Assembly: GCA_947258945.1 (NCBI GenBank)
Contig: CAMYKJ010000041.1
Location: forward strand, 1 to 11,507
From: an uncultured Ectothiorhodospiraceae bacterium
Lineage (GTDB): Bacteria; Pseudomonadota; Gammaproteobacteria; UBA9214
Direction of reading: 5' to 3'
DNA: 11,507 nt
Under the pieces are notes generated by a model. That model saw only the letters and a list, made by a program, of their open reading frames with translations. It made no database searches and was not told the origin of the DNA. This document shows positions 1 to 11,507 of this stretch, in pieces. The translations under genes were made by a program, and so were the position numbers. Each line of letters starts with the position of its first letter. Position 1 is the stretch's first letter.

Positions 1-1
1 G

Positions 2-235
2 CTGATACCGCACCAGGCCAATATCCGCATCATCCAGGCCACCGCGCGCAAGTTGCGCATGTCCATGGACCACGTGGTGGTCACGGTCGGCGAGCATGGT
101 AATACCTCGGCCGCCTCGGTTCCGCTGGCGCTGGATACCGCCGTCCGCGACGGTCGGATCCAGCGCGGCGAAATCCTGCTGATGGAGGCATTTGGCGGCG
201 GCTTCACCTGGGGCTCGGCACTGGTCAAGTATTAA
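2..235 (+). CDS. fabH: FabH, beta-ketoacyl-ACP synthase III (3' end only)
   Basis: This is the C-terminal 77 residues of FabH, which condenses acetyl-CoA with malonyl-ACP to start type II fatty acid synthesis. The gene enters from the left edge in frame 2 and ends at TAA 233-235. Two of the three catalytic residues are visible: the His of [11 protein letters not shown] (codon 11-13) and the Asn of EHGNTSAA (codon 101-103). The Cys lies upstream of the window. The C-terminus [13 protein letters not shown] is the usual FabH ending. The next genes, fabD, fabG, acpP and fabF, form the standard gammaproteobacterial fab cluster, so the assignment is secure. Confidence 0.96.
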
Positions 236-241
236 TTTTTT

Positions 242-318
242 ATTGCCACTGAAACCACGGAAGGACACGGAAATACAATTCCTGCTTATTCTGTGGTTTC
301 CGTGGATTCCGTGGCAAT
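242..318. repeat. MITE-like imperfect inverted repeat between fabH and fabD
   Basis: The outer 8 bases match perfectly as an inverted repeat: ATTGCCAC at 242-249 and GTGGCAAT at 311-318. About 30 bases on each side pair imperfectly inward, built from CCACGGAA and TTCCGTGG units. The element is flanked by a T run on each side (about 236-241 and 319-323). CCACGGAA-rich intergenic palindromes of this kind occur as scattered elements in many proteobacterial genomes. As RNA it would form a long hairpin followed by U residues, so it could reduce readthrough from fabH into fabD or act as a processing site. That role is inferred. Confidence 0.75.
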
Positions 319-345
319 TTTTTACTAAGCGGTAATTAAGCGTTC

Positions 346-1290
346 ATGAGTGCAACAACCGATAAATCACTGGCGATGGTGTTTCCCGGGCAGGGGTCTC
401 AGTCCATCGGCATGCTGGCCGATCTGGCTGCAAAACACCCGCAGGTCGGGGAAACATTCGACGAGGCCAGCGCCGTGCTGCAGTATGATCTGTGGAAGCT
501 GGTACAGGAGGGGCCGGAAGCGGAACTCAACCAGACCGACAGGACACAGCCGGCGATGCTGGCGGCCGGCGTTTCCGTCTGGCGAGTCTGGCAGGCGAGC
601 AGCGGTGCTGCGCCGTCGGTCATGGCCGGCCACAGTCTGGGTGAATATACGGCGCTGGTCTGCGCGGGCGCGCTCGACTTTGCCGATGCCGTCGCCCTGG
701 TGGCCGAGCGTGGCCGCTGCATGCAGGATGCCGTCCCCCCCGGGGTAGGGGCGATGGCCGCCCTGCTGGGTCTGGACGACGAAACCGTCGCCGCTGTCTG
801 TATGCGTGCGGTCGATGGCGAGGTGGTCGAACCGGTCAATTTCAATTCGCCCGGTCAGGTCGTGATTGCCGGCAATACCACCGCCGTGGAGCGGGCCATT
901 GCGCTGGCGAAGGAAGCCGGCGCCAAACGGGCGGTGACCCTGCCCGTGAGTGTACCCTCGCACTGCGCACTGATGAAACCCGCCGCCGAAAAATTTGCGC
1001 AGCGACTGGCGCAGACGCACATTTCGCAACCCGCCATCCCGGTTGTGCAGAACGTCGATGCCGTGCTGCACGACCAGCCGGAAATGATTCGCGACAATCT
1101 CGGCAAGCAGCTCTACAGTCCGGTGCAGTGGGTCAGTTCCGTGCACGCCATGCATGCGCACGGCGTGACACGCATGCTCGAGGCCGGGCCCGGCAAGGTG
1201 CTGGCCGGACTGTGCAAGCGTATCGACAAGCGCATCGCCAGTGCGTCCGTATATGACCCGGACACGCTGGCTGGCGCACTGGCGGGTTGA
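346..1290 (+). CDS. fabD: FabD, malonyl-CoA:ACP transacylase
   Basis: FabD moves the malonyl group from CoA to the acyl carrier protein, supplying the extender for fatty acid elongation in the cytoplasm. The 314-residue length is normal for the family. Visible motifs are FPGQGSQ at residues 13-19 (oxyanion-side Gln16), the nucleophile elbow GHSLGE with Ser97, conserved Arg122 in the RGRCMQ block, and catalytic His206 in PSHCALM. The ATG at 346 starts MSATTDKSLAMVFPGQG, a typical FabD N-terminus, although the Shine-Dalgarno is weak. It follows fabH after a repeat-bearing gap of 110 bases and precedes fabG by 28 bases. Confidence 0.97.
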   Translation: MSATTDKSLAMVFPGQGSQSIGMLADLAAKHPQVGETFDEASAVLQYDLWKLVQEGPEAELNQTDRTQPAMLAAGVSVWRVWQASSGAAPSVMAGHSLGEYTALVCAGALDFADAVALVAERGRCMQDAVPPGVGAMAALLGLDDETVAAVCMRAVDGEVVEPVNFNSPGQVVIAGNTTAVERAIALAKEAGAKRAVTLPVSVPSHCALMKPAAEKFAQRLAQTHISQPAIPVVQNVDAVLHDQPEMIRDNLGKQLYSPVQWVSSVHAMHAHGVTRMLEAGPGKVLAGLCKRIDKRIASASVYDPDTLAGALAG

Positions 1291-1318
1291 ATGATCAAAT
1301 CAACGATAGGGATCCGAC

Positions 1319-2062
1319 ATGCCACTGAGTAACGAAATCGCACTGGTAACCGGCGCCAGCCGGGGAATCGGCAAGGCCATTGCCGGGGTGCTGGGGCGCC
1401 GGGGCGCCACGGTCATCGGCACGGCGACCTCCGTGGGCGGCGCTGGTGGTATCAGCGAGGCATTGTCCGCCGCCGGTATCAGTGGAACGGGCCATGTGCT
1501 GAACGTCACCGATCCGGATTCCATCGCGGAACTGCTGAAGAAAGTGCAGGACGAGTTCGGTGCGCCGACCATCCTGGTGAACAATGCCGGTATCACGCGC
1601 GACAACCTGATGATGCGCATGAAGGACGAAGAGTGGAATGAAGTCATCGAGACAAACCTGACGTCCGCATTCCGCATGAGCAAGGCCTGCCTGCGCGGCA
1701 TGATGAAGGCCAGGCACGGGCGCATCATCATGATCTCGTCTGTGATCGGTGCGACCGGCAATCCCGGCCAGGCGAACTACGCCGCGACCAAGGCCGGTAT
1801 GATCGGCTTTGCCAAGTCGCTGGCACGTGAAATCGGCTCGCGCGGTATCACCGTGAATGCCGTGGCGCCCGGCTTTATCGATACCGACATGACGCGGGCC
1901 CTGCCCGAGGAACAGCGCGAGGCGCTGCTGGGACAGATTGCACTTGGCCGGCTGGGCGATGTCGCGGATATTGCCAATGCCGTGGCCTTCCTTGCATCAG
2001 CCGATGCCGCCTACATCACCGGCGAAACCATCCATGTCAACGGTGGCATGTACATGGGCTGA
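1319..2062 (+). CDS. fabG: FabG, 3-oxoacyl-ACP reductase
   Basis: FabG is the NADPH-dependent short-chain dehydrogenase that reduces 3-oxoacyl-ACP in each elongation cycle. The Rossmann glycine motif TGASRGIG is at residues 11-18, the NNAG motif at 88-91, and the catalytic Ser141, Tyr154 and Lys158 lie in a block with the family's exact Ser-13-Tyr-4-Lys spacing. The C-terminal ITGETIHVNGGMYMG is diagnostic of FabG among short-chain dehydrogenases. At 247 residues it is full length. An AGGGA-like ribosome site precedes the ATG. It lies 28 bases after fabD and is probably co-transcribed with it. Confidence 0.97.
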   Translation: MPLSNEIALVTGASRGIGKAIAGVLGRRGATVIGTATSVGGAGGISEALSAAGISGTGHVLNVTDPDSIAELLKKVQDEFGAPTILVNNAGITRDNLMMRMKDEEWNEVIETNLTSAFRMSKACLRGMMKARHGRIIMISSVIGATGNPGQANYAATKAGMIGFAKSLAREIGSRGITVNAVAPGFIDTDMTRALPEEQREALLGQIALGRLGDVADIANAVAFLASADAAYITGETIHVNGGMYMG

Positions 2063-2078
2063 TGGACGCAGCTCCACC

Positions 2079-2131
2079 GCCGATTGTAATAATTATATAA
2101 ATCACTGATTATATTGCATTAATAATAACAT
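2079..2131. other. AT-rich island in the fabG-acpP gap
   Basis: This roughly 50-base stretch is almost entirely A and T, in sharp contrast to the GC-rich surroundings. It holds TTGTAA at 2084-2089 and several TATAT and ATTAAT words. It lies about 70-120 bases upstream of the candidate acpP promoter. It could be an UP-type or regulator-binding region or a second weak promoter. I see no clean promoter or operator in it. Confidence 0.35.
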
Positions 2132-2199
2132 GGAGCGGGGCTCGCCAGGCCGCCGGGGAGGTGATGTTCCGCGACTCCCGCAGATGCGCTGCAATCGAC

Positions 2200-2229
2200 T
2201 TGTAACTTGTCTGTACCATTCACTACAAT
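2200..2229 (+). promoter_or_regulatory. Candidate sigma-70 promoter for acpP
   Basis: TTGTAA at 2200-2205 as the -35 and TACAAT at 2224-2229 as the -10 are separated by 18 bases. Transcription would start near 2236, about 43 bases before the acpP start codon. A dedicated acpP promoter inside the fab cluster fits the very high demand for acyl carrier protein and is known in E. coli. The call rests on hexamer match and position only. Confidence 0.5.
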
Positions 2230-2278
2230 AGCCGCGCAGCCATGGCTGCATTCACAAAACCGAGAGGAATTTCCTGAA

Positions 2279-2515
2279 ATGAGCAATGTTGATGAGCGCG
2301 TCAAGAAGATAGTTGTTGAGCAACTGGGCGTGAAAGAAGACGAAGTCAATGACAGTTCTTCTTTTGTCGATGACCTTGGCGCGGATTCCCTTGATACGGT
2401 GGAGCTGGTCATGGCGCTTGAAGAGGAATTCGAATGTGAAATTCCTGATGAAGAAGCAGAAAAGATTACAACCGTTCAGCAGGCGATCGACTACGTCAAC
2501 GCCCACCTGGGGTAA
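2279..2515 (+). CDS. acpP: AcpP, acyl carrier protein
   Basis: AcpP is the 78-residue acidic carrier that holds growing acyl chains on a phosphopantetheine arm. The attachment site is Ser37 (counting Met) in the motif [20 protein letters not shown], and the helix-rich acidic composition is typical. I chose the ATG at 2279 over an upstream in-frame ATG at 2207 because it has a strong GAGAGGA ribosome site at 2262-2268 and gives the standard [19 protein letters not shown]-terminus. It sits between fabG and fabF, has its own candidate promoter and is followed by a strong terminator hairpin, consistent with abundant separate expression. Confidence 0.98.
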
Positions 2516-2536
2516 TCTTTCTCCCTCGAGCATTCC

Positions 2537-2571
2537 GGCCGCACCCGTATCGATCCGCGGTGCGGCCTTTT
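2537..2571 (+). terminator. Rho-independent terminator after acpP
   Basis: GGCCGCACC at 2537-2545 pairs perfectly with GGTGCGGCC at 2559-2567, giving a 9-base-pair stem with a 13-base loop, followed by TTTT at 2568-2571 and a further T-rich run. It lies 22 bases after the acpP stop. The short U tract suggests partial termination, which would keep fabF expressed below acpP. Confidence 0.8.
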
Positions 2572-2617
2572 AGTTTTCAGATCTGTTACCCCAGAGGCCT
2601 GTGACAGGAGATAAGCA

Positions 2618-3856
2618 TTGTCGAAAAGACGTGTGGTCGTAACCGGTCTTGGCATCATTTCACCCGTTGGTAACAGTGTCCAGGCGGCCTGGGAAAATAT
2701 TCTTGCCGGCAACAGCGGCATTGGGCCGATCACGAATTTCGATGCCTCCGATTTCCCGGTGCGGTTTGCCGGCGAGATTCGCGACTTCGATGCCGGTGAG
2801 TACATCGCCGACAAGGAAGCACGTCGCATGGGTGCCTTCATTCACTACGGCATCGCGGCGGCCAGCCAGGCCGTCAGTGATTCAGGCATCGAGATCACCG
2901 AGGCAAATGCCGCACGTGCAGGCGTCGCCATCGGTTCGGGAATCGGCGGTCTGCGCGGTATCGAGGTGGCCTACCAGGCCTGGCTCGATGGCGGCCCCCG
3001 CAAGATCTCACCGTTCTTCGTGCCCGGCAACATCATCAACATGATCGCCGGCAACCTGTCGATCATGTATGGCATGAAGGGGCCGAATATCGCCGTGGTG
3101 ACGGCCTGTACCACCTCGACGCACAATATTGGCCTGGCGGCACGCACCATTGCCTACGGCGATGCCGACATCATGCTGGCCGGTGGCGCGGAAATGACCA
3201 CGTGTCCGACCGGCATCGGCGGGTTTGCCGCCGCACGCGCACTGTCCACCCGCAACGACGACCCGGCGGCGGCCAGTCGACCCTGGGACAGCGACCGCGA
3301 CGGCTTCGTGCTGAGCGACGGTGCCGGCATCCTGATGCTGGAGGAGTACGAGACAGCCAGGCAGCGGGGCGCGGATATCTATTGCGAGATCACCGGTTTT
3401 GGCATGAGCGGTGATGCCTTCCACATGACGCAGCCCTCGGAAGGCGGCGAAGGGCCGGCCCAGTGCATGGACGCGGCACTCAACGATGCCGGTATCAATC
3501 ACGAGGCCGTGGACTACATCAATGCCCACGGCACCTCGACCCCGGCGGGCGACGTGGCCGAGACGCTGGCGATCAAGCGCTCGTTCGGTGAGCATGCCGG
3601 CAAGCTCGCCATCAGTTCTACCAAGTCCATGACCGGGCACCTGCTGGGTGCCGCCGGCGGTGTCGAGGCCGTGTTTACCGTGCTTGCCCTGCGCGACCAG
3701 CAGGCGCCTGGCACCATCAATCTCGACAATCCCGATCCCGAGTGCGACCTGGACTATGTGCCGAACGCCTCGCGTGATATGAAAATCGACACTGCATTGT
3801 CGAATTCATTCGGCTTTGGCGGTACCAACGGCACGCTGGTGTTCAGTCGCCTGTAG
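2618..3856 (+). CDS. fabF: FabF, beta-ketoacyl-ACP synthase II
   Basis: FabF is the elongating condensing enzyme of type II fatty acid synthesis, adding malonyl-ACP units to acyl-ACP. The thiolase-fold active site is complete: Cys164 in [13 protein letters not shown], His304 in [11 protein letters not shown], Lys336 and His341 in [15 protein letters not shown]. The C-terminal NSFGFGGTN block is intact and the 412-residue length is normal. The start is a TTG at 2618, supported by AGGAG at 2606-2610 with a 7-base spacer and by the standard [12 protein letters not shown]-terminus. No in-frame ATG gives this N-terminus. Confidence 0.97.
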
Positions 3857-3879
3857 GTTGAGAGCATCTGCTGGCATGG

Positions 3880-3967
3880 TGTAGGAGCGCCTTCCAGGCG
3901 CGACATTGCCTCAGTGGATAATCGCGCCTGCAAGCCTGTCCCCGCGGAGGCGGGGAGCGCTCCTACA
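3880..3967. repeat. REP-like palindromic element between fabF and pabB
   Basis: The ends are inverted copies: TGTAGGAGCGC at 3880-3890 and GCGCTCCTACA at 3957-3967. Inside are two further hairpins, CAGGCGCGA (3895-3903) against TCGCGCCTG (3922-3930) and CCCCGC (3940-3945) against GCGGGG (3950-3955). The GTAGGAGCGC...GGCGCGA wording resembles REP elements well known from Pseudomonas and relatives. It could act as a transcript 3'-end stabiliser or attenuator between fabF and pabB. Confidence 0.8.
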
Positions 3968-3969
3968 GG

Positions 3970-3998
3970 TCTTTTCGAACACCATCTAAAGATACAAT
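3970..3998 (+). promoter_or_regulatory. Weak candidate promoter immediately upstream of pabB
   Basis: TACAAT at 3993-3998 is a good -10 hexamer, identical to the one proposed for acpP. The -35 region 17 bases upstream (TCTTTT, 3970-3975) is poor. Transcription would begin at about 4005, next to the pabB ATG at 4006, which itself has no visible Shine-Dalgarno. The call is tentative. Confidence 0.25.
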
Positions 3999-4005
3999 TC
4001 CGAAC

Positions 4006-5364
4006 ATGGCCGCGATTGTCAGGGAAATCAAACAGGCGGTTGAACTGCTGGCGCTCCTCAGGGCGAATACCGCGCGCTATCCTTTCCTGCTGCAAAGCGT
4101 GGCCCATGGACGCTACGACATCCTGTTTGCCTGTCCCGACGACAGCCTCGTCCTGCAGCCGGACGGCGTGTTGCAGCACCCCGACGGGACGCCTGTCACT
4201 GGCAACGATTTCCTTGACGGAATGGATGCGTGGTGGCATCAGCATGCCGTTGGCCCCGCCGACAGTGACCTACCGTTTACCGGCGGGTGGTTTCTGTATC
4301 TCGGCTACGAACTGGCGGGCCAGATCGAGCCGACGCTGCAGCTTGCGCATGCAGATCAGGACCTGCCGGTCGCCTTTGCAACGCGTTGCGCGACGGCCCT
4401 GGTGCGCGATCGCGACAGGGATGCGGTGTTTGTCGTGGGTGAGCCCGGTAGCGAAGCGGACATGGCCGTTATCGAGGCGGACATCGAGGGCCTGGCCGAG
4501 GCGGGTGCGCCGGTCAGGCAGGACATCCAGGCGCAGGAGATCACCGAACAGCCGGACCGTGACTACCTCGATGCGGTCAGGCGCATCAAGGACTACATCG
4601 TCGAGGGCGATGTCTTCCAGGTGAACCTGTCCCGGCTATGGAAGCTGCACCTGGCAGCGGCAGCCAAACCGCATGAGTTGTATGAAAACCTGTGCTACCA
4701 CAATCCCGCGCCCTTCAGCGGCCTTGCGCACTGGCAGGATGCGGCGATCGTCAGTTCCTCACCCGAGCGACTGGTCAAGGTGCGCAACGGCATGGTCGAG
4801 ACGCGACCGATAGCCGGTACGCGTCCACGCAGCCCAAGTTCGCGCGAGGACGAGGCCTGGTCGGAAGAACTGCTGGCACACCCGAAGGAACGCGCCGAGC
4901 ACATCATGCTGATCGATCTCGAGCGCAACGACCTGGGGCGCCTGTGTGTGCCGGGCAGTATCGAGGTCAACGAGTTCATGGTGCTGGAGTCCTATGCGCA
5001 TGTGCATCACATCGTATCCAACGTGCGCGGACGTTTGCGCGATGACACCACGCCGGGCGTCGTGCTTCGCGCGGTGTTTCCGGGTGGTACCATAACCGGA
5101 TGTCCCAAGGTGCGCTGCATGGAAATCATCGCCGAACTGGAACTGGCGCCGCGCGGCGCCTACACCGGCTCGATGGGTTACCTCAACCGTGACGGCAGCA
5201 TGGATATGAATATCCTGATCCGTACCATGGTCAGCCGGGGAGAGCGGCTGGTACTGCGGGCCGGTGCCGGCATCGTGGCGGATTCCGTGCCCGCGGCGGA
5301 ACTGACGGAAACGCGCGCCAAGGCGCGCGGCCTGTTGCGCTCACTCGGCGTCGGCTCCGCATGA
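4006..5364 (+). CDS. pabB: PabB, aminodeoxychorismate synthase component I
   Basis: PabB aminates chorismate to 4-amino-4-deoxychorismate, the first step towards the p-aminobenzoate part of folate, with ammonia normally supplied by PabA. The 452-residue length matches E. coli PabB. The chorismate-binding domain is clear: SSSPERLV, PIAGTRPR (residues 268-275), ERAEHIMLIDLERNDLGR with metal-site Glu306, ESYAHVHHIVSNV, FPGGTITGCPKVRCMEII and GAYTGSMGY. Residue 270 is Ala, whereas E. coli PabB has a Lys there that forms a covalent intermediate; Ala is typical of anthranilate synthase TrpE. Translational coupling to pabC by a 4-base overlap, and no trp genes nearby, favour PabB. No Shine-Dalgarno is visible before the ATG. 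Confidence 0.9.
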   Translation: MAAIVREIKQAVELLALLRANTARYPFLLQSVAHGRYDILFACPDDSLVLQPDGVLQHPDGTPVTGNDFLDGMDAWWHQHAVGPADSDLPFTGGWFLYLGYELAGQIEPTLQLAHADQDLPVAFATRCATALVRDRDRDAVFVVGEPGSEADMAVIEADIEGLAEAGAPVRQDIQAQEITEQPDRDYLDAVRRIKDYIVEGDVFQVNLSRLWKLHLAAAAKPHELYENLCYHNPAPFSGLAHWQDAAIVSSSPERLVKVRNGMVETRPIAGTRPRSPSSREDEAWSEELLAHPKERAEHIMLIDLERNDLGRLCVPGSIEVNEFMVLESYAHVHHIVSNVRGRLRDDTTPGVVLRAVFPGGTITGCPKVRCMEIIAELELAPRGAYTGSMGYLNRDGSMDMNILIRTMVSRGERLVLRAGAGIVADSVPAAELTETRAKARGLLRSLGVGSA

Positions 5365-6215
5365 ACACCGGTATGCCGCTCTCGCGCGTCAACGGTGAAG
5401 CAGGCGGGCAGCTTTCCGTCACCGACCGCGGCCTGCTGTTTGGCGACGGTGTGTTCGAAACGCTTGCCGTGCGTGATGCGCGTCCTTGCCTTTGGGCAAG
5501 ACACATGGCGCGCCTGCAGGCCGGCTGTCACCGGCTCGGCATCGCGCCGGTCGATGAAGCGCGGCTGCGCACCGAGGTGGACGAACTGCTGCAGGCGGCA
5601 CCCGCGGCGGCGCAGTCTGTCCTGAAGATCATTGTTACCCGCGGGACGGGTACGCGGGGTTACCGGCCGGACCCGGGCGCTGTACCCACCCGCATCGTGC
5701 AATTGCATGACTGGGCGGATAGGGACTCCGGTGAAACGGGTATCAAGGCAACGCTGTGCTCGCTGCGCCTGGGCAACAATCCGCAGCTGGCCGGCATCAA
5801 GCACCTCAACCGGCTGGAGCAGGTCATGGCCCGGTCGGAATGGGACGATCCCGGGATCCGCGAAGGGCTGCTGCTCGATCAGGCCGGACGCGTGATCGAG
5901 GGCACCATGAGTAATCTCTTCCTGGTGAAAGACGGGCTGCTGACGACGCCGGACCTGGCCCGCTGCGGCGTGGCCGGCATCATGCGTGATGTCGTGCTCG
6001 AGCTGGCAGGCCGGCAGGCAATCGACACGCGCGTGTCCGATGTCGGGCTCGATGCACTGTTCCAGGCCGATGAACTGTTTGTCTGCAACAGCCTGATCGG
6101 TATCTGGCCGGTGGTTGCGCTGAACAGCAACCGCTATCCACCGGGCGCGGTCACCTCCGGCTTACAATCGCGCCTGCAGGACTATGACGATGACCACCAT
6201 ACCTGGCGGGCATGA
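5361..6215 (+). CDS. pabC: PabC, aminodeoxychorismate lyase
   Basis: PabC is a class IV pyridoxal-phosphate enzyme that splits aminodeoxychorismate into p-aminobenzoate and pyruvate, acting directly after PabB. Fold-type IV features are visible: DRGLLFGDGVFETLAV near residues 21-36, the cofactor lysine Lys147 in LAGIKHLNRLEQV, and the phosphate-binding EGTMSNLFLVKDG block followed by GVAGIMRDVV. The 284 residues include an N-terminal extension of a few residues before VNG; a second ATG at 5373 is possible. The ATG at 5361 overlaps the pabB stop as ATGA, indicating coupled translation. Confidence 0.92.
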   Translation: MNTGMPLSRVNGEAGGQLSVTDRGLLFGDGVFETLAVRDARPCLWARHMARLQAGCHRLGIAPVDEARLRTEVDELLQAAPAAAQSVLKIIVTRGTGTRGYRPDPGAVPTRIVQLHDWADRDSGETGIKATLCSLRLGNNPQLAGIKHLNRLEQVMARSEWDDPGIREGLLLDQAGRVIEGTMSNLFLVKDGLLTTPDLARCGVAGIMRDVVLELAGRQAIDTRVSDVGLDALFQADELFVCNSLIGIWPVVALNSNRYPPGAVTSGLQSRLQDYDDDHHTWRA

Positions 6216-6228
6216 TGGACAGGACAGC

Positions 6229-6275
6229 ATGACAGACGCACAGCCTACGGCACCGTTCAGGCGGCTGCTGGTCCG
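6229..6275 (+). pseudogene. mltG: Displaced 5' start of mltG (out of frame with the rest)
   Basis: An ATG at 6229, 14 bases after pabC, opens a peptide starting MTDAQPTAPFRRLLV. This looks like the short cytoplasmic N-terminus that precedes the membrane anchor in MltG. The frame then diverges: the mltG body, starting RFQDAPVTLAAGEVTF, resumes in another frame from 6276. No hydrophobic segment is encoded at the junction. A deletion whose length is 1 modulo 3, about the size of a transmembrane helix, would explain both the frame change and the missing anchor. Confidence 0.6.
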
Positions 6276-6326
6276 AGATTCCAGGATGCGCCGGTCACGC
6301 TTGCTGCCGGTGAGGTCACGTTCGAG

Positions 6327-7822
<1,496 letters not shown>

Positions 7823-7830
7823 AATCCCGG

Positions 7831-7858
7831 GGAATTAAATCCACCATTTGAGCGTCTA
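7831..7858 (+). promoter_or_regulatory. Predicted ECF-sigma promoter of the first dsrE-like gene
   Basis: GGAATTAA at 7831-7838 and CGTCTA at 7853-7858 fit the shared motif GGAATWAA-N14-CGTCYW also found upstream of the sigma operon and the second dsrE-like gene. A GGAA-type -35 with a CGTC-type -10 is a classic ECF promoter layout. Transcription would start near 7865, leaving a leader of about 118 bases before the ATG at 7983. Confidence 0.75.
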
Positions 7859-7865
7859 CTAATGA

Positions 7866-7886
7866 GTACAGGAAGAAACCTGTTAC
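7866..7886 (+). other. Stem-loop at the predicted 5' end of the dsrE-like mRNA
   Basis: GTACAGG at 7866-7872 pairs with CCTGTTAC at 7879-7886 with one bulged base and a 6-base loop. It begins at the predicted transcription start. A second weaker stem, CACTGT (7897-7902) with ACAGTG (7919-7924), follows. The leader may be structured for mRNA stability; no known riboswitch is recognised. Confidence 0.35.
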
Positions 7887-7982
7887 TCCCTGCAGGCACT
7901 GTGTGTTTTAATCATCAGACAGTGTTATTGCACGTCACCTGCCAGGCAAGCGGCGGGTAAAAAAATCCAGAGGAGATTACAC

Positions 7983-8462
7983 ATGAAGATGATGAAATTT
8001 TGGGGCTCGCTACTGACGGTCGTTGCATTGCTGGCCGGTATGCAGGTCATGGCTGGCGACCGGTATGGTAAACAGAAGGTGGTTTACCACGTCAACTACG
8101 ATGATCCCAAGCAACAGGCCGGCGCATTGAGAAACATACAGAATCACATCAATGCAGTGGGTGCCGAGAACCTTGACCTCAAGGTGGTTATGCATGGCAA
8201 GGGCCTGACGATGTTACTCACGCCTGATGCTGCAGCCAGCACCAAGCTGAAGATGGGCAACGCAACGGATGAAATCCAGGCCAAGATTGCCGGTCTGAAG
8301 GATCAGGGCATCGGTTTCGAGGTGTGTTCGAACACACTGAAGGGCAAGAAGATCGACTACGGAAAAGACCTGTATGACGTTAGCGAGGCAGATATCGTAC
8401 CGAGTGGCGTCGCCGAGCTGGCCCGCCTGCAGGCAATGGGGTATACCTACATCAAGCCCTGA
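7983..8462 (+). CDS. Exported DsrE-like protein with a single conserved cysteine
   Basis: A 159-residue protein with a Sec signal peptide (KMMKFW, hydrophobic core 8-20, probable cleavage after VMA at residue 24), so the mature 135-residue domain is periplasmic. It has the DsrE-like fold pattern: strand KVVYHVNYDD (32-41), LDLKVVMHGKGLTMLL (64-79), then GIGFEVCSNTL with the only mature Cys at 115, and DIVPSGVAELARLQAMGYTYIKP split across 137-159. The CSNTL and GYTYIKP blocks recall, from memory, the COG1416-type DsrE-like family of unknown function. DsrE relatives carry sulfur on a cysteine as persulfide; that role here is inference. AGGAG at 7971-7975 supports the start, and an ECF-type promoter lies upstream. 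Confidence 0.85.
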   Translation: MKMMKFWGSLLTVVALLAGMQVMAGDRYGKQKVVYHVNYDDPKQQAGALRNIQNHINAVGAENLDLKVVMHGKGLTMLLTPDAAASTKLKMGNATDEIQAKIAGLKDQGIGFEVCSNTLKGKKIDYGKDLYDVSEADIVPSGVAELARLQAMGYTYIKP

Positions 8463-8480
8463 GCAAATCTGCGGTAAATA

Positions 8481-8508
8481 AAAAACCGGCCTATGGCCGG
8501 TTTTTTTT
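8481..8508. terminator. Bidirectional terminator between convergent dsrE-like and anti-sigma genes
   Basis: AAAAACCGGCC at 8481-8491 and GGCCGGTTTTT at 8495-8505 form an 11-base-pair perfect stem with a 3-base loop. T8 follows on the + strand, and an A-rich left arm gives a U tract on the - strand. It sits exactly between the dsrE-like stop (8462) and the anti-sigma stop (8525), so it can end both transcripts. Confidence 0.93.
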
Positions 8509-8524
8509 GCAGTACAAAACTGTG

Positions 8525-9253
8525 TCAGACGCGGATGTACACCCAGCCCTGCTGCAGGCGGTCGACAATTGCCTCGAGGGCGCCCGGGATGACAGTGGCC
8601 TCCGGCAGCAGGTGGACATCGATACCGCGCAAACGCAGTTTCTCGATGGTACGGCTGCAGGCCAGGAAACTGATGTTATCGAATTTTTCTGCCAGGCGCC
8701 TGATGCGTTCCGGGTAGGGCGAGGTATCGGCGCGCAGCAGGGCCAGTCCCGCGGTATTGGCAACAACCTCCAGCTGTATCAGCTCCGGGTTGTCCTTGTA
8801 GCCCTCAAGCAATTCCTCGGCATCGTTGAGTGCCTGATCCAGTCGCTCTTCCTCGGCACTGCTGACATGCAATACAACCCGTTTCAGTTCGTGGCCAGTG
8901 CTGCCTGCCCTGGCCAGTGGATCAAATCCGTAATTCGCCGTTGCTGTCATGTGCGTGGGTATTAACGTGCCGGTCAGCGTCCCCAGCGCGAATATCATGA
9001 CAGCGGCCGCAGCCATGCGCGGAATGCGTGCCCACCATGCAGGAGGCACACTGCCCTGGCCCGGCGCGACCCGCTCGGGTTCGAGGTAGGCAAGACGCAC
9101 CGTGTCCTTGATCTGCAGCAACTCACACACCTGGCAGGCCAGTTCATCATCCTGGCGAATCGCCTCCATGATCTCGGCACGATCGGTAATGTCGATTTCA
9201 TCATCGACAAACGCCTGCAGTTGTTCATCGGAATAGCGGTTGTCAGTACTCAT
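8525..9253 (-). CDS. One-pass anti-sigma factor with a periplasmic DsrE-like sensor domain
   Basis: A 242-residue protein in three parts. Residues 1-60 form an anti-sigma-like helical domain (YSDEQLQAFVDDEID) with Cys40-x2-Cys43; the His usual three residues before the first Cys of zinc anti-sigma domains is replaced by Asp36. Residues 80-98 are one membrane helix (AAAAVMIFALGTLTGTLI) preceded by Arg residues, placing the C-terminus outside. Residues 124-242 form a DsrE-like domain that parallels the exported protein at 7983: KRVVLHVSS, IQLEVVANTAGLALL, ISFLACSRTI with Cys199, and a VIPGA...GWVYIRV ending. The ATG overlaps the sigma gene's stop by 4 bases, so the pair is co-translated. It probably holds the sigma factor at the membrane and releases it on a periplasmic thiol or sulfur cue; the cue is inferred. 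Confidence 0.82.
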   Translation of the reverse strand: MSTDNRYSDEQLQAFVDDEIDITDRAEIMEAIRQDDELACQVCELLQIKDTVRLAYLEPERVAPGQGSVPPAWWARIPRMAAAAVMIFALGTLTGTLIPTHMTATANYGFDPLARAGSTGHELKRVVLHVSSAEEERLDQALNDAEELLEGYKDNPELIQLEVVANTAGLALLRADTSPYPERIRRLAEKFDNISFLACSRTIEKLRLRGIDVHLLPEATVIPGALEAIVDRLQQGWVYIRV

Positions 9254-9786
9254 TTGACTCTCCGGATCTTGGCGCGCGCAAAGTCATGCCGCGGGTCATA
9301 CTCCGCCAGCGCGACCTTCAGCGCCTTCCTGGCACGGCAGATACGGCTCATGACCGTGCCAATGGGTATGTCAAGAATTTCGGCGATTTCCGCATAGGAA
9401 AAGCCGGCGAGATCAACCAGTGTAATGACCTGGCGCTGACCATCGGGCAGTTCTGCAATCATCTGCCGGACGCGGTCGACAATATCCTGGCGTTCGTTAA
9501 CATCCTCGGTACGTGGCTCATATTCACCGGCCAGTTCGTCGATGTCGGTCATGTCGCGCTTGCTGCGCAGGTAGTCGTACCAGCAGTTTGTGAGAATGCG
9601 CGTCAGCCAGGCCTTGATGGCACGGGTATCCTGCAGCTGCCCGGCATTGCGCAATGCCTTTACCATGGTGTTCTGCACCAGGTCATCTGCCAGTGCTGGC
9701 TGGTGACACCATGAATAGGCCAGTCGGTACAGCAGTTCACGTCGTTGTTCCAGTTCCTGGTGAATCAATCGTTTGTTTCTGAACAT
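9250..9786 (-). CDS. ECF-type RNA polymerase sigma factor
   Basis: A 178-residue sigma-70 family protein with only regions 2 and 4, as in the extracytoplasmic-function group. Region 2 spans about residues 16-77 (YRLAYSWCHQPALADDLVQ, then AIKAWLTRILTNCWYDYLRS for -10 recognition). Region 4 spans about 110-157 (ELPDGQRQVITLVDLAGFSY, then the helix-turn-helix EIAEILDIPIGTVMSRICRA for -35 recognition). A GGAG ribosome site lies only 3 bases before the ATG at 9786. It is translationally coupled to the downstream anti-sigma gene and preceded by a motif it probably recognises itself, giving positive autoregulation. The family call is firm; the exact ECF subgroup cannot be told here. Confidence 0.93.
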   Translation of the reverse strand: MFRNKRLIHQELEQRRELLYRLAYSWCHQPALADDLVQNTMVKALRNAGQLQDTRAIKAWLTRILTNCWYDYLRSKRDMTDIDELAGEYEPRTEDVNERQDIVDRVRQMIAELPDGQRQVITLVDLAGFSYAEIAEILDIPIGTVMSRICRARKALKVALAEYDPRHDFARAKIRRVK

Positions 9787-9848
9787 CAGCTCCGCCCCGA
9801 TTGTTATAGTTTTTATATGGTAACGCAGTTGCGTGCCTTATAAAGTCT

Positions 9849-9876
9849 AGGACGGATCACTGAAGGGGTTTATTCC
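9849..9876 (-). promoter_or_regulatory. Predicted autoregulated ECF-sigma promoter of the sigma/anti-sigma operon
   Basis: On the - strand GGAATAAA (9876-9869) and CGTCCT (9854-9849) match the shared motif GGAATWAA-N14-CGTCYW with identical spacing. Transcription would start near 9842, about 56 bases before the sigma start codon. A second, sigma-70-like -10 (TATAAC, near 9805) may give basal expression. Confidence 0.75.
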
Positions 9877-10133
9877 TGTCTCGAGGGAGTAGTTAGCCGG
9901 CAATGTAGGGCCGGTCTGGTCATGCGCCGGGAGGATTCGGCCTTGATATAACGCCAATCACCACCCTGCGGCCGACCCATAATAACTATTACTATCATGC
10001 TGTTGTATAAGTTCCCTGATTTTTTCTATGGGGAGCGGAGCATTCTTGCGCAGTCAGCATGCTGAAACTATTGAATCTATTCTGTGCTGGTTGCGCCAAA
10101 ACCGGATAATCAGAGGCGTAAATCCACCGCAGG

Positions 10134-10147
10134 TATCGATATCGATA
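10134..10147. repeat. 14-base perfect palindrome upstream of the Sel1-repeat gene
   Basis: TATCGATATCGATA reads identically on both strands. It lies about 90 bases before the preferred Sel1 start codon, a position suitable for a dimeric regulator's operator. Function is unproven. Confidence 0.4.
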
Positions 10148-10237
10148 TGTCAATTGCTGTTAGATAAAACTGTGAGTCTGTTTTCCTCAATATGTACGCA
10201 GGATCAATATCAGTTGCTGCGAATATTGCTATGCAAA

Positions 10238-10861
10238 ATGAATAAAACATATTCAGATATGTCAGTTCGGGCAATTTACTGTTTTATCGCAGTTGGCCTG
10301 TTATTCAGCCAGCCTCTTTTTGCGGATTTTACCCGGGGTATGCATGCCTATACGCACTACGACTACCAAACGGCACGGGAACAATTCACCCTGGCGGGAC
10401 TGAACGGGCACAGTGATGCCCAATACTACCTGGGCGAGATCTATGAAGGTGGTGTTGGCGTCCCGCTTGATTTCCAGCAGGCCTTTCACTGGTACATGCA
10501 GGCGGCGAAGCAGTCACACGCCAGGGCCCAGGCAAGACTGGCCGGTTTATATGCAGGCGGAAGGGGCACAGGGCAGGATTGGGTCAAGTCGTTCAACTGG
10601 TATCTGCGTTCGGCAGAAAACGGGTATCCACTGGCGCAGTTTGAAGTGGGTCTGCTGTATACAGAAGGCAAGGGTACGGCGGTCAACCATGTTGAGGCCT
10701 ATAAGTGGTTAACGCTGGCTGCGTCTTATGGTGATCCGGAGGCGTTATCGATGAGGCAGGCGTTGGCGGCGGGCATGTCGCCTGCAGATATTGCCAAGGC
10801 AGCCCGACTGGCGCACACGTGGGAATCCAGGCGGGAAAGCAGAGAGACTGATGAAGAGTGA
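10238..10861 (+). CDS. Secreted Sel1-repeat (TPR-like) protein
   Basis: A 207-residue protein with three Sel1-like repeats, about 59-93, 94-131 and 132-166, each with the GxxYxxGxGVxxDxxxAxxWYxxAAxxG pattern (for example EIYEGGVGVPLDFQQAFHWY). A preceding TPR-like half repeat is at 42-58. The N-terminus has a signal peptide, VRAIYCFIAVGLLFSQPLFA, with cleavage expected after Ala29, so the repeats face the periplasm. Sel1 repeats mediate protein-protein contacts. I prefer ATG 10238 or ATG 10259 because both place the signal peptide at the N-terminus; neither has a strong ribosome site. It sits between the sigma gene and a second dsrE-like gene, but no shared promoter motif precedes it, so membership of that system is uncertain. 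Confidence 0.8.
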   Translation: MNKTYSDMSVRAIYCFIAVGLLFSQPLFADFTRGMHAYTHYDYQTAREQFTLAGLNGHSDAQYYLGEIYEGGVGVPLDFQQAFHWYMQAAKQSHARAQARLAGLYAGGRGTGQDWVKSFNWYLRSAENGYPLAQFEVGLLYTEGKGTAVNHVEAYKWLTLAASYGDPEALSMRQALAAGMSPADIAKAARLAHTWESRRESRETDEE

Positions 10862-11041
10862 TTTATCAACATATAGGTATTCAATCATCCATATAGAGTA
10901 TTTTAATACTATATATAGATAAATTTTGAGTGTACTATCCAGCCTAATTTGATCTGGAGCAACGGGTATACGCTGCCAATTATTTGGCGATCTGATGTAT
11001 TTCCAGCGCCGCGCCAATTGAAAAATAGATCAATAAAAAAA

Positions 11042-11069
11042 GGAATAAATACAACAATCGTTGCGTCTT
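11042..11069 (+). promoter_or_regulatory. Predicted ECF-sigma promoter of the second dsrE-like gene
   Basis: GGAATAAA at 11042-11049 and CGTCTT at 11064-11069 are the third copy of GGAATWAA-N14-CGTCYW in the window, with the same spacing. Transcription would start near 11076, about 110 bases before the ATG at 11186, similar to the first dsrE-like gene. Confidence 0.75.
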
Positions 11070-11138
11070 TACATCAAGCGATAGTGCTCGAACAACAAAG
11101 AGCACAAGAATGAACCGGGATAACACGGGGTTGAGAGA

Positions 11139-11161
11139 GACACGGAAATCAATACCGTGTC
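11139..11161 (+). other. Leader hairpin before the second dsrE-like gene
   Basis: GACACGG at 11139-11145 pairs perfectly with CCGTGTC at 11155-11161 around a 9-base loop. It lies 14 bases before the GGAGG ribosome site, inside the predicted transcript, and could influence translation or mRNA stability. There is no T run, so it is not a terminator. Confidence 0.4.
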
Positions 11162-11185
11162 GATGATTTCAAATCGGAGGAGAGC

Positions 11186-11507
11186 ATGAAGAAAGCTTAT
11201 TTTACGAGTCTGTTGTCACTTGGTCTGGCCCTGGGCCTGTGCTGGTCGGGGCTGCAAGCTGCGCCGTTGAAAAAGACACCGGAAGCCTCTCCGGAACTGT
11301 TTCATCCCAAAAGGGTGACTGCGGTCCCCGAAGCCCCTGAGAGCAAGCCGTTCGCCGAGCACGCCGTCGTCTTTCATATCTCATCGGGTGATGGTTTCGC
11401 CCAGAAGCTGGTGCTGAACAATGCCCAGAACCTGCAACGGTTCTACGGCCCGGACAAGATTCAGATCGAGGTGGTGGCCTATGGCCCGGGTCTGCGTACG
11501 CTGTTCA
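11186..11507 (+). CDS. Second exported DsrE-like protein (5' part, cut by window edge)
   Basis: The first 107 residues are visible. A Sec signal peptide (KKAYFTSLLSLGLALGLCW, cleavage near Ala25 or Ala26) is followed by a Pro-, Glu- and Lys-rich linker to about residue 60. A DsrE-like domain then begins: HAVVFHISSGDGFAQKLVLN, and IQIEVVAYGPGLRTLF at the edge. These line up with the equivalent strands of the exported protein at 7983 and the anti-sigma sensor domain. The cysteine block would lie beyond the window. The start has GGAGG at 11176-11180. Cys19 is in the signal core without a proper lipobox (Leu at -1), so a lipoprotein is unlikely. The ECF-type promoter upstream ties it to the same regulon. 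Confidence 0.82.
   Translation, partial: MKKAYFTSLLSLGLALGLCWSGLQAAPLKKTPEASPELFHPKRVTAVPEAPESKPFAEHAVVFHISSGDGFAQKLVLNNAQNLQRFYGPDKIQIEVVAYGPGLRTLF

Follow-up and report, generated by a model that had tools for sequence, protein, structure and literature searches.

As regulators of inorganic sulfur oxidation, the extracytoplasmic function (ECF) sigma factors RpoE1 and RpoE4 of Sinorhizobium meliloti, both of group ECF26, were previously reported to control sulfite oxidation and to be activated on sulfite-generating compounds (PMC3511301). Regulation of the sox genes by SoxR and of the shdr genes by sHdrR, both ArsR-type repressors, was described for Hyphomicrobium denitrificans in two further papers (PMC10451225; PMC12423496). 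The former states that little is known about how sulfur-oxidising bacteria sense thiosulfate, finds that SoxR goes with complete Sox systems more frequently than with truncated ones, and suggests that some bacteria with truncated Sox systems, dedicated sulfur oxidisers, need little transcriptional control (PMC10451225). Here we analysed a stretch of 11,507 nucleotides (the window; positions 1-11507 on a contig 13,902 bases long) from the 75% complete genome of an uncultured Ectothiorhodospiraceae bacterium, which encodes an ECF sigma factor, a membrane anti-sigma factor with a C-terminal periplasmic DsrE-fold domain and two exported DsrE-like proteins. The sulfur-carrier fold probably serves here as the sensor of a gene switch that detects sulfur compounds outside the inner membrane. 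The switch is found again in numerous other sulfur oxidisers and appears to activate genes by which thiosulfate is handled and oxidised.

The sigma/anti-sigma pair, its DsrE-fold domain and its promoter motif

The arrangement reported in the earlier note, an ECF sigma factor, a membrane anti-sigma factor with a DsrE-like domain and two exported DsrE-like proteins, was confirmed in the window. The features concerned are as follows.

8525-9253, minus strand: membrane anti-sigma factor with a C-terminal periplasmic DsrE-fold domain, 242 amino acids
8528-8899, minus strand: DsrE-fold domain, covering residues 119-242 of the anti-sigma factor (start approximate)
8657-8659, minus strand: codon of Cys199 of the anti-sigma factor, invariant in 72/72 full-length homologues
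8960-9016, minus strand: predicted transmembrane stretch of the anti-sigma factor, residues 80-98 (from hydropathy)
9250-9786, minus strand: ECF sigma factor, 178 amino acids (Sigma70_r2, Sigma70_r4_2)
7983-8462, plus strand: exported DsrE-like protein 1 (DsrE1), 159 amino acids; Pfam DsrE 2e-9, signal-peptide-like N-terminus, single cysteine Cys115
11186-11507, plus strand: exported DsrE-like protein 2 (DsrE2), cut by the window end and followed by a porin on the contig
7831-7856, plus strand: promoter-like site GGAAT-N17-CGTC, upstream of DsrE1
9851-9876, minus strand: promoter-like site GGAATAAA-N14-CGTC, upstream of the sigma and anti-sigma genes (candidate autoregulation)
11042-11067, plus strand: promoter-like site GGAATAAA-N14-CGTC, preceding the DsrE2 and porin genes

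The window sigma factor matched Pfam Sigma70_r2 (9e-16) and Sigma70_r4_2 (3e-20), both over cut-off, with no region-3 family listed; it has sigma regions 2 and 4 without region 3. In the NCBIfam scan no equivalog cut-off was reached among its best 25 of 110 matches. The anti-sigma gene lies directly downstream and overlaps the sigma gene by 4 bases, and the hydropathy of its product, with a 19-residue maximum of 1.96 at residues 80-98, predicts a transmembrane stretch. An N-terminal anti-sigma domain (ASD/ZAS) gave no Pfam match in the window protein.

The Pfam scan also gave no DsrE match in the window anti-sigma factor itself, while 2 of 11 aligned members had one. Since the full-length model built from seven sequences was poor (mean predicted local distance difference test score, pLDDT, 48), the DsrE domain was modelled alone from 16 sequences, and the modelled periplasmic domain adopts the DsrE fold of the DsrE/DsrF-like family (PF02635). 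Its closest sequence relative with a solved structure is MTH1491, and Cys199 aligned with a cysteine in MTH1491 and in ST0148. Across 72 full-length anti-sigma factors, Cys199, Trp237 and Tyr239 were each conserved in all 72, and His129 in 71.

The exported proteins share this cysteine position, at which the three DsrE types align. The DsrE1 cysteine was kept in 14/14 homologues, and the exported DsrE cysteine was present in 40/40 rows having that alignment column. The DsrE2 frame runs past the window to contig base 11596 (L035:5096) and is interrupted by 13 N (contig 11508-11520; L035:5008-5020), so the conserved cysteine of the home copy is not visible. The Pfam scan of the 107 amino acids of DsrE2 inside the window gave no match, and the orthologue in the related genome G016 matched Pfam DsrE (4e-6). 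The outer-membrane porin 3' of DsrE2, beyond the window end, has 533 amino acids and is Porin_O_P-like (PF07396, 4e-6). DsrEFH and TusBCD work in the cytoplasm. In contrast, DsrE1, DsrE2 and the DsrE domain of the anti-sigma factor are all predicted to lie outside it, because DsrE1 and DsrE2 each begin with a hydrophobic stretch resembling a signal peptide and the anti-sigma factor is anchored in the membrane.

Three copies of the motif GGAAT-N17-CGTC are present in the window, one before each transcription unit (7831-7856 on the plus strand, 9876-9851 on the minus strand, 11042-11067 on the plus strand), at 126 bp from the start codon of DsrE1, 64 bp from that of the sigma gene and 118 bp from that of DsrE2. 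The expected count was 0.14, and three sites were reached in 0/200 shuffles; the single promoter-like motif that the earlier note placed before all three units is therefore real. In the upstream regions of 78 fetched loci the pattern GGAAT-N16..18-CGT, for which only spacings of 16 and 17 were seen, preceded 46/74 sigma genes (1.05 in shuffles), 22/41 DsrE2 genes (0.66) and 6/14 DsrE1 genes (0.26), and the consensus of 54 sites was GGAATAAat...CGTCTa. All five separately encoded DsrE1 genes, which belong to the home family (that of the window genome), carried GGAAT-N17-CGTC. The other nine lie just downstream of the anti-sigma gene on the same strand; the sixth DsrE1 match (L127) falls inside the anti-sigma gene and may be a chance one.

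Distribution of the pair and the motif at sox genes

The full-length DsrE-type anti-sigma factor (a match beginning at profile position 12 or earlier and reaching position 238 or beyond, judged by eye) was found in 66 of 369 sampled genomes of the class Gammaproteobacteria. A soxB match (TIGR04486, E <= 1e-30; 156/369 genomes, 148 of them over the family cut-off) was present in 65 of these 66 pair-bearing genomes compared with 91 of the 303 others (Fisher p 1.4e-27, not corrected for relatedness), which supports the sulfur-linked role proposed in the earlier note. The pair-bearing genomes represent 40 families, and in 39 families every pair-bearing genome had a soxB match. The gene dsrA was found in 51/66 pair-bearing and 65/303 other genomes, and among the genomes lacking dsrA the soxB link persisted (15/15 vs 37/238). 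A closer alignment matched 7 loci, all in metagenome-assembled genome records labelled Gammaproteobacteria or uncultured Ectothiorhodospiraceae (two of seven). When 398 genomes of the phylum were sampled (E <= 1e-25), 14 matched: three were full-length, all of the window's class, and the other 11, outside the class, matched only from profile position 53 or later and are apparently exported DsrE proteins. These eleven out-of-class genomes (L351-L362) match the C-terminal half of the anti-sigma factor only, which hints at the origin of the fusion.

Neighbourhoods were counted in 60 class loci fetched for the full-length anti-sigma factor, several of which came from one genome (three from G226, for example). 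The sigma gene adjoined the anti-sigma gene in 60/60. The commonest partner was a divergent operon of exported DsrE and porin: the DsrE2 gene was divergent within 1.5 kb in 31/60 loci, the porin gene was divergent within 3.5 kb in 31/60, and both were present in 28/60. A DsrE gene stood directly 3' of the anti-sigma gene in 8/60. In total, a DsrE or porin gene was a partner in 40/60, a scripted count that misses L117 and L138, in which the partner lies under a falsely long open reading frame (ORF). The gene neighbourhood, whose conservation the earlier note had proposed as a check, is thus kept in related genomes. Apart from DsrE/anti-sigma, sigma and porin, no cluster occurred in more than 10 of 68 loci. 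SoxB and SoxB-like nucleotidases formed one cluster in 8/68; three of the eight (G007, G287, G188) were TIGR04486 SoxB matches, the G007 copy being cut by the contig end, and the G177 locus was a further one with soxB near the pair. Clusters named by eye as thioredoxin-like and OsmC-like occurred in 5/68 and 4/68 loci (the latter L132, L134, L145 and L151).

Genome-wide, the strict pattern GGAATAAW-N14-CGTC was searched in 12 genomes and gave 33 sites (0 to 5 in each), compared with 1 for the reversed control. By reading, 16/33 preceded sigma, DsrE2 or porin genes, and 7/33 preceded sulfur-related genes: soxB (G016 and G020), soxX of a soxX-soxY-soxZ operon (G102 and G144), a Sulf_transp gene of the YeeE/TsuA-like type and a PF03601 membrane protein gene (both G104), and a SoxB-like nucleotidase gene (G008). 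In scans of the downstream genes, SoxX, SoxY, SoxZ, SoxB and Sulf_transp were all over cut-off. The PF03601 site lies 147 bp before its gene (L204; G104:C1:1543074), and we take PF03601 to be a family of putative sulfate exporters. A second, tighter pattern gave 7 sites in five of seven genomes searched and none in G000 (the home genome) or G007.

The soxB neighbourhoods of 60 of the 65 genomes with both pair and soxB were then compared with a pair-lacking set; the comparison did not include G145, G075, G153 and G310, and G000 was considered on its own. The pair-lacking set comprised 40 of the 91 soxB genomes without a full-length pair, taken in SoxB score order; it skipped G112, in which the anti-sigma gene is split over contigs, and G083, G320 and others of the 40 match the DsrE domain only. 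In the 320 bp that precede soxB, GGAAT-N16/17-CGTC was found in 16/60 genomes with the pair and in 0/40 without it (p 1.1e-4); control spacings of 12-15 and 18-22 gave 0 matches in both sets. Some soxXYZ operons and YeeE-type transporter genes also carried the motif; before any of soxB, soxX, soxY or yeeE it was found in 19/60 vs 2/40 (p 9e-4), the 19 coming from 13 families, and the control spacing of 22 matched one yeeE gene of the pair-lacking set. A cruder first test on whole soxB neighbourhoods gave 23/60 vs 2/40 for GGAAT-N17-CGTC and 9/60 vs 1/40 for N16, with controls of 0/60 vs 3/40 (N12), 3/60 vs 3/40 (N22) and 8/60 vs 4/40 (scrambled). Some of the sox-neighbourhood matches lie inside long ORFs, among them the soxB matches of L252 and L289, and in L272, L287 and L294, where the sigma operon stands beside sox, one match in each is the sigma promoter itself. 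A chance origin of the sox motif is unlikely, because the motif was defined on the window and on the loci of other pairs rather than on sox promoters, because the matches depend on the spacing, and because 18 of the 19 sox loci come from families other than the home family. Within the home family the motif was found at soxB of G016, G020 and G021 and at the SoxB-like nucleotidase gene of G008, whose soxB had no motif site upstream; in G007 the link is physical, since soxB, which has no site of its own, shares a contig with the DsrE2-porin operon and follows it at a distance of about 2 kb. The system is therefore not self-contained, contrary to the earlier note: the predicted regulon takes in the porin and, in some other genomes, soxB, soxXYZ and YeeE-type transporters.

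Several further observations were made around the pair. SoxB-like 5'-nucleotidases, which fell short of the SoxB cut-off in the cases scanned, were seen on its DsrE1 side (L043:1013-3103, L038:3822-6020) and with a motif upstream (L348:1372-3486). Also encoded near it were large proteins that start with a signal-like segment and match no Pfam family (L047:8470-10245, L043:7329-9029); the one in L047 also had no NCBIfam match, and a motif lies about 100 bp upstream of its gene. In the window the gene order starts with a fatty-acid gene cluster and tmk (named by eye), followed by DsrE1. The tmk gene (7232-7822) looks damaged relative to the G016 copy (L037:5008-5631): the translations suggest that about 15 residues are missing near the N-terminus and that the frame changes near the C-terminus, possibly an assembly error. 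Two remaining features lie between the units described above.

8480-8508, no strand assigned: inverted repeat (by eye) containing runs of A and of T, in the gap where the DsrE1 and anti-sigma genes converge
10028-10861, plus strand: Sel1-repeat gene, between the sigma operon and DsrE2

The inverted repeat is a probable two-way terminator judging from its letters, and it was absent from the list of the terminator scan of the window. The Sel1-repeat protein is also found in G001 (L045), and other genes stand in its place in several other relatives.

The proposed sensing mechanism and its alternatives

We propose that the ECF sigma factor is retained at the inner membrane by its anti-sigma partner, whose periplasmic DsrE-fold domain would read sulfane sulfur through the invariant Cys199, in the form of a persulfide, a polysulfide or an intermediate of the Sox pathway. 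This sulfur may be delivered by the separately encoded exported DsrE proteins. Loading of the signal would release the sigma factor, which would recognise GGAATAAW-N14-CGTC (one base shorter in some sites) and transcribe the operon that encodes it, together with the genes for the exported DsrE proteins and the porin. From the promoters it is predicted to transcribe soxB, soxXYZ and YeeE-type sulfur transporters as well in some of the pair-carrying Gammaproteobacteria. In this way the periplasmic equipment for sulfur handling and thiosulfate oxidation would be made when its substrate is present. Sequestration relieved by loading of Cys199, directly or through an exported DsrE protein, is the most likely mechanism; it is supported by the fold, by the invariance of the cysteine and by the regulon. 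As a whole, a trans-membrane sulfur switch that leads from sulfane-sulfur sensing to its own operon, DsrE, the porin and, in some Gammaproteobacteria, sox is the explanation we favour with moderate confidence. That the pair is an unrecognised regulator of thiosulfate oxidation across the Dsr-type Gammaproteobacteria, with a carrier fold recruited as a periplasmic anti-sigma sensor that signals to sox, DsrE and porin promoters, is a wider claim that we put forward tentatively.

A number of results weigh against this switch. Since dsrA is also associated with the pair, the sox link partly follows the general lifestyle of sulfur oxidisers; the association tests are uncorrected for phylogeny, and G077 has the pair and dsrA without a soxB match. 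The motif was absent before 28/74 sigma genes, and 10/33 strict sites had no evident sulfur gene downstream, for example those in the pheT/ihfA region (G016, G020) and before the gene preceding miaB in the home genome (G000:C63). In the soxB neighbourhoods, 41/60 pair-bearing genomes had no motif at soxB, soxX, soxY or yeeE; soxX alone was not significant (7/23 vs 2/16), and two pair-lacking genomes (G086, G385) carried the motif before soxX. No motif stands before soxB of the home genome (G000:C248), soxY did not turn up in this 75% complete genome, and the sox loci around soxY in eight home-family relatives were without the motif.

The absence of the motif at these sigma genes and sox neighbourhoods would also suit an envelope switch for redox or thiol stress, in which Cys199 senses oxidants, metals or arsenite, the DsrE proteins and porin are protective, and the sox link comes from the lifestyle of the carriers. 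Many ECF pairs answer envelope stress. An AhpC/TSA-family protein is encoded beside the pair in L038, and the thioredoxin-like and OsmC-like clusters fit the same picture. Expression of DsrE/F-like genes was reported to change under arsenite in two Thioalkalivibrio species (PMC6620896). However, none of the clusters beyond DsrE/anti-sigma, sigma and porin exceeds 10/68 loci, the motif stands with fixed spacing at soxB, soxXYZ and YeeE genes of pair-bearing genomes, and the soxB match in 65/66 of these genomes also speaks against a general stress response, which we consider unlikely. The earlier note had proposed a sensor of reactive sulfur or of envelope thiol oxidation. The sulfur link stands; since the predicted regulon includes the porin, soxB, soxXYZ and YeeE, thiosulfate use is better supported than generic thiol oxidation, and for the sensing chemistry itself the reading of sulfane sulfur by Cys199 is our inference.

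The domain might also be a docking platform and not a sensor, with release triggered when SoxYZ, the porin or an exported DsrE protein in its loaded state binds to it, in the way that TonB-dependent receptors signal at the cell surface. The commonest partners are indeed exported DsrE and porin genes (40/60 loci), and the three DsrE types align at one cysteine position. But a cysteine invariant in 72/72 anti-sigma factors is more than pure docking needs, and 20/60 loci have no DsrE or porin gene beside the pair, although two of these, L117 and L138, do have one on the map; we regard docking as rather improbable, if still worth weighing. Sensing could instead reside in the N-terminal Cys40-x2-Cys43, like that of zinc-binding anti-sigma domains, the DsrE domain being a degenerate remnant. 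Cys40 and Cys43 are invariant in the seven aligned close members, the window included, and 1 of 11 aligned members has a weak zf-HC2 match (0.0068). Against this, only one column besides Cys199 holds a cysteine in at least a quarter of the 72 sequences (49/72), and Cys199 is the sole cysteine in 14/72, so that this alternative seems very unlikely.

Comparison with known systems

If the trans-membrane sulfur switch is correct, the cell would read sulfane sulfur where Sox chemistry happens and signal across the membrane to sox, DsrE and porin promoters. The pair, present in 66/369 class genomes of which 51 have dsrA, offers a candidate for a periplasmic sensor along with a promoter motif and targets identified by name, and it also suggests that DsrE proteins have a function beyond the cytoplasm. 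With it, the open question of substrate sensing in Dsr-type sulfur oxidisers can be put to specific experiments.

The statement of the earlier note that no system of this form had been described holds in part. In our searches of an open-licence library no DsrE-type anti-sigma factor was found in print; ECF control of sox in Arcobacter butzleri (PMC3445524) and of sulfite oxidation in Sinorhizobium (PMC3511301) has been described. DsrE of DsrEFH (2hy5), TusBCD (2d1p) and MTH1491 (1l1s) have the same fold as that modelled for the periplasmic domain of the anti-sigma factor, but they are not anti-sigma factors, whereas here the fold forms the periplasmic domain of one.

RpoE1 and RpoE4 resemble the window pair in the ECF control of inorganic sulfur oxidation, as predicted for the latter, and in promoters with GAA and GT elements. 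They differ in their target, which is the sulfite dehydrogenase SorT and not Sox, and DsrE is unmentioned in the available text, where the sole match is the reporter DsRed (PMC3511301). The ECF pairs of A. butzleri are similar to the proposed switch in that transcription of soxCDXYZAB was changed, in opposite directions for sigma-2 and sigma-7; they differ in their broad, overlapping regulons (nap, tct, dct), and the word DsrE is absent from the accessible text (PMC3445524). A. butzleri belongs to a distant group, being an epsilonproteobacterium (PMC2147049). SoxR and sHdrR are like the proposed switch in answering sulfane sulfur through conserved cysteines (PMC10451225; PMC12423496). They are, however, repressors that bind DNA; the pair described here would detect its signal in the periplasm and exert its effect by way of a sigma factor.

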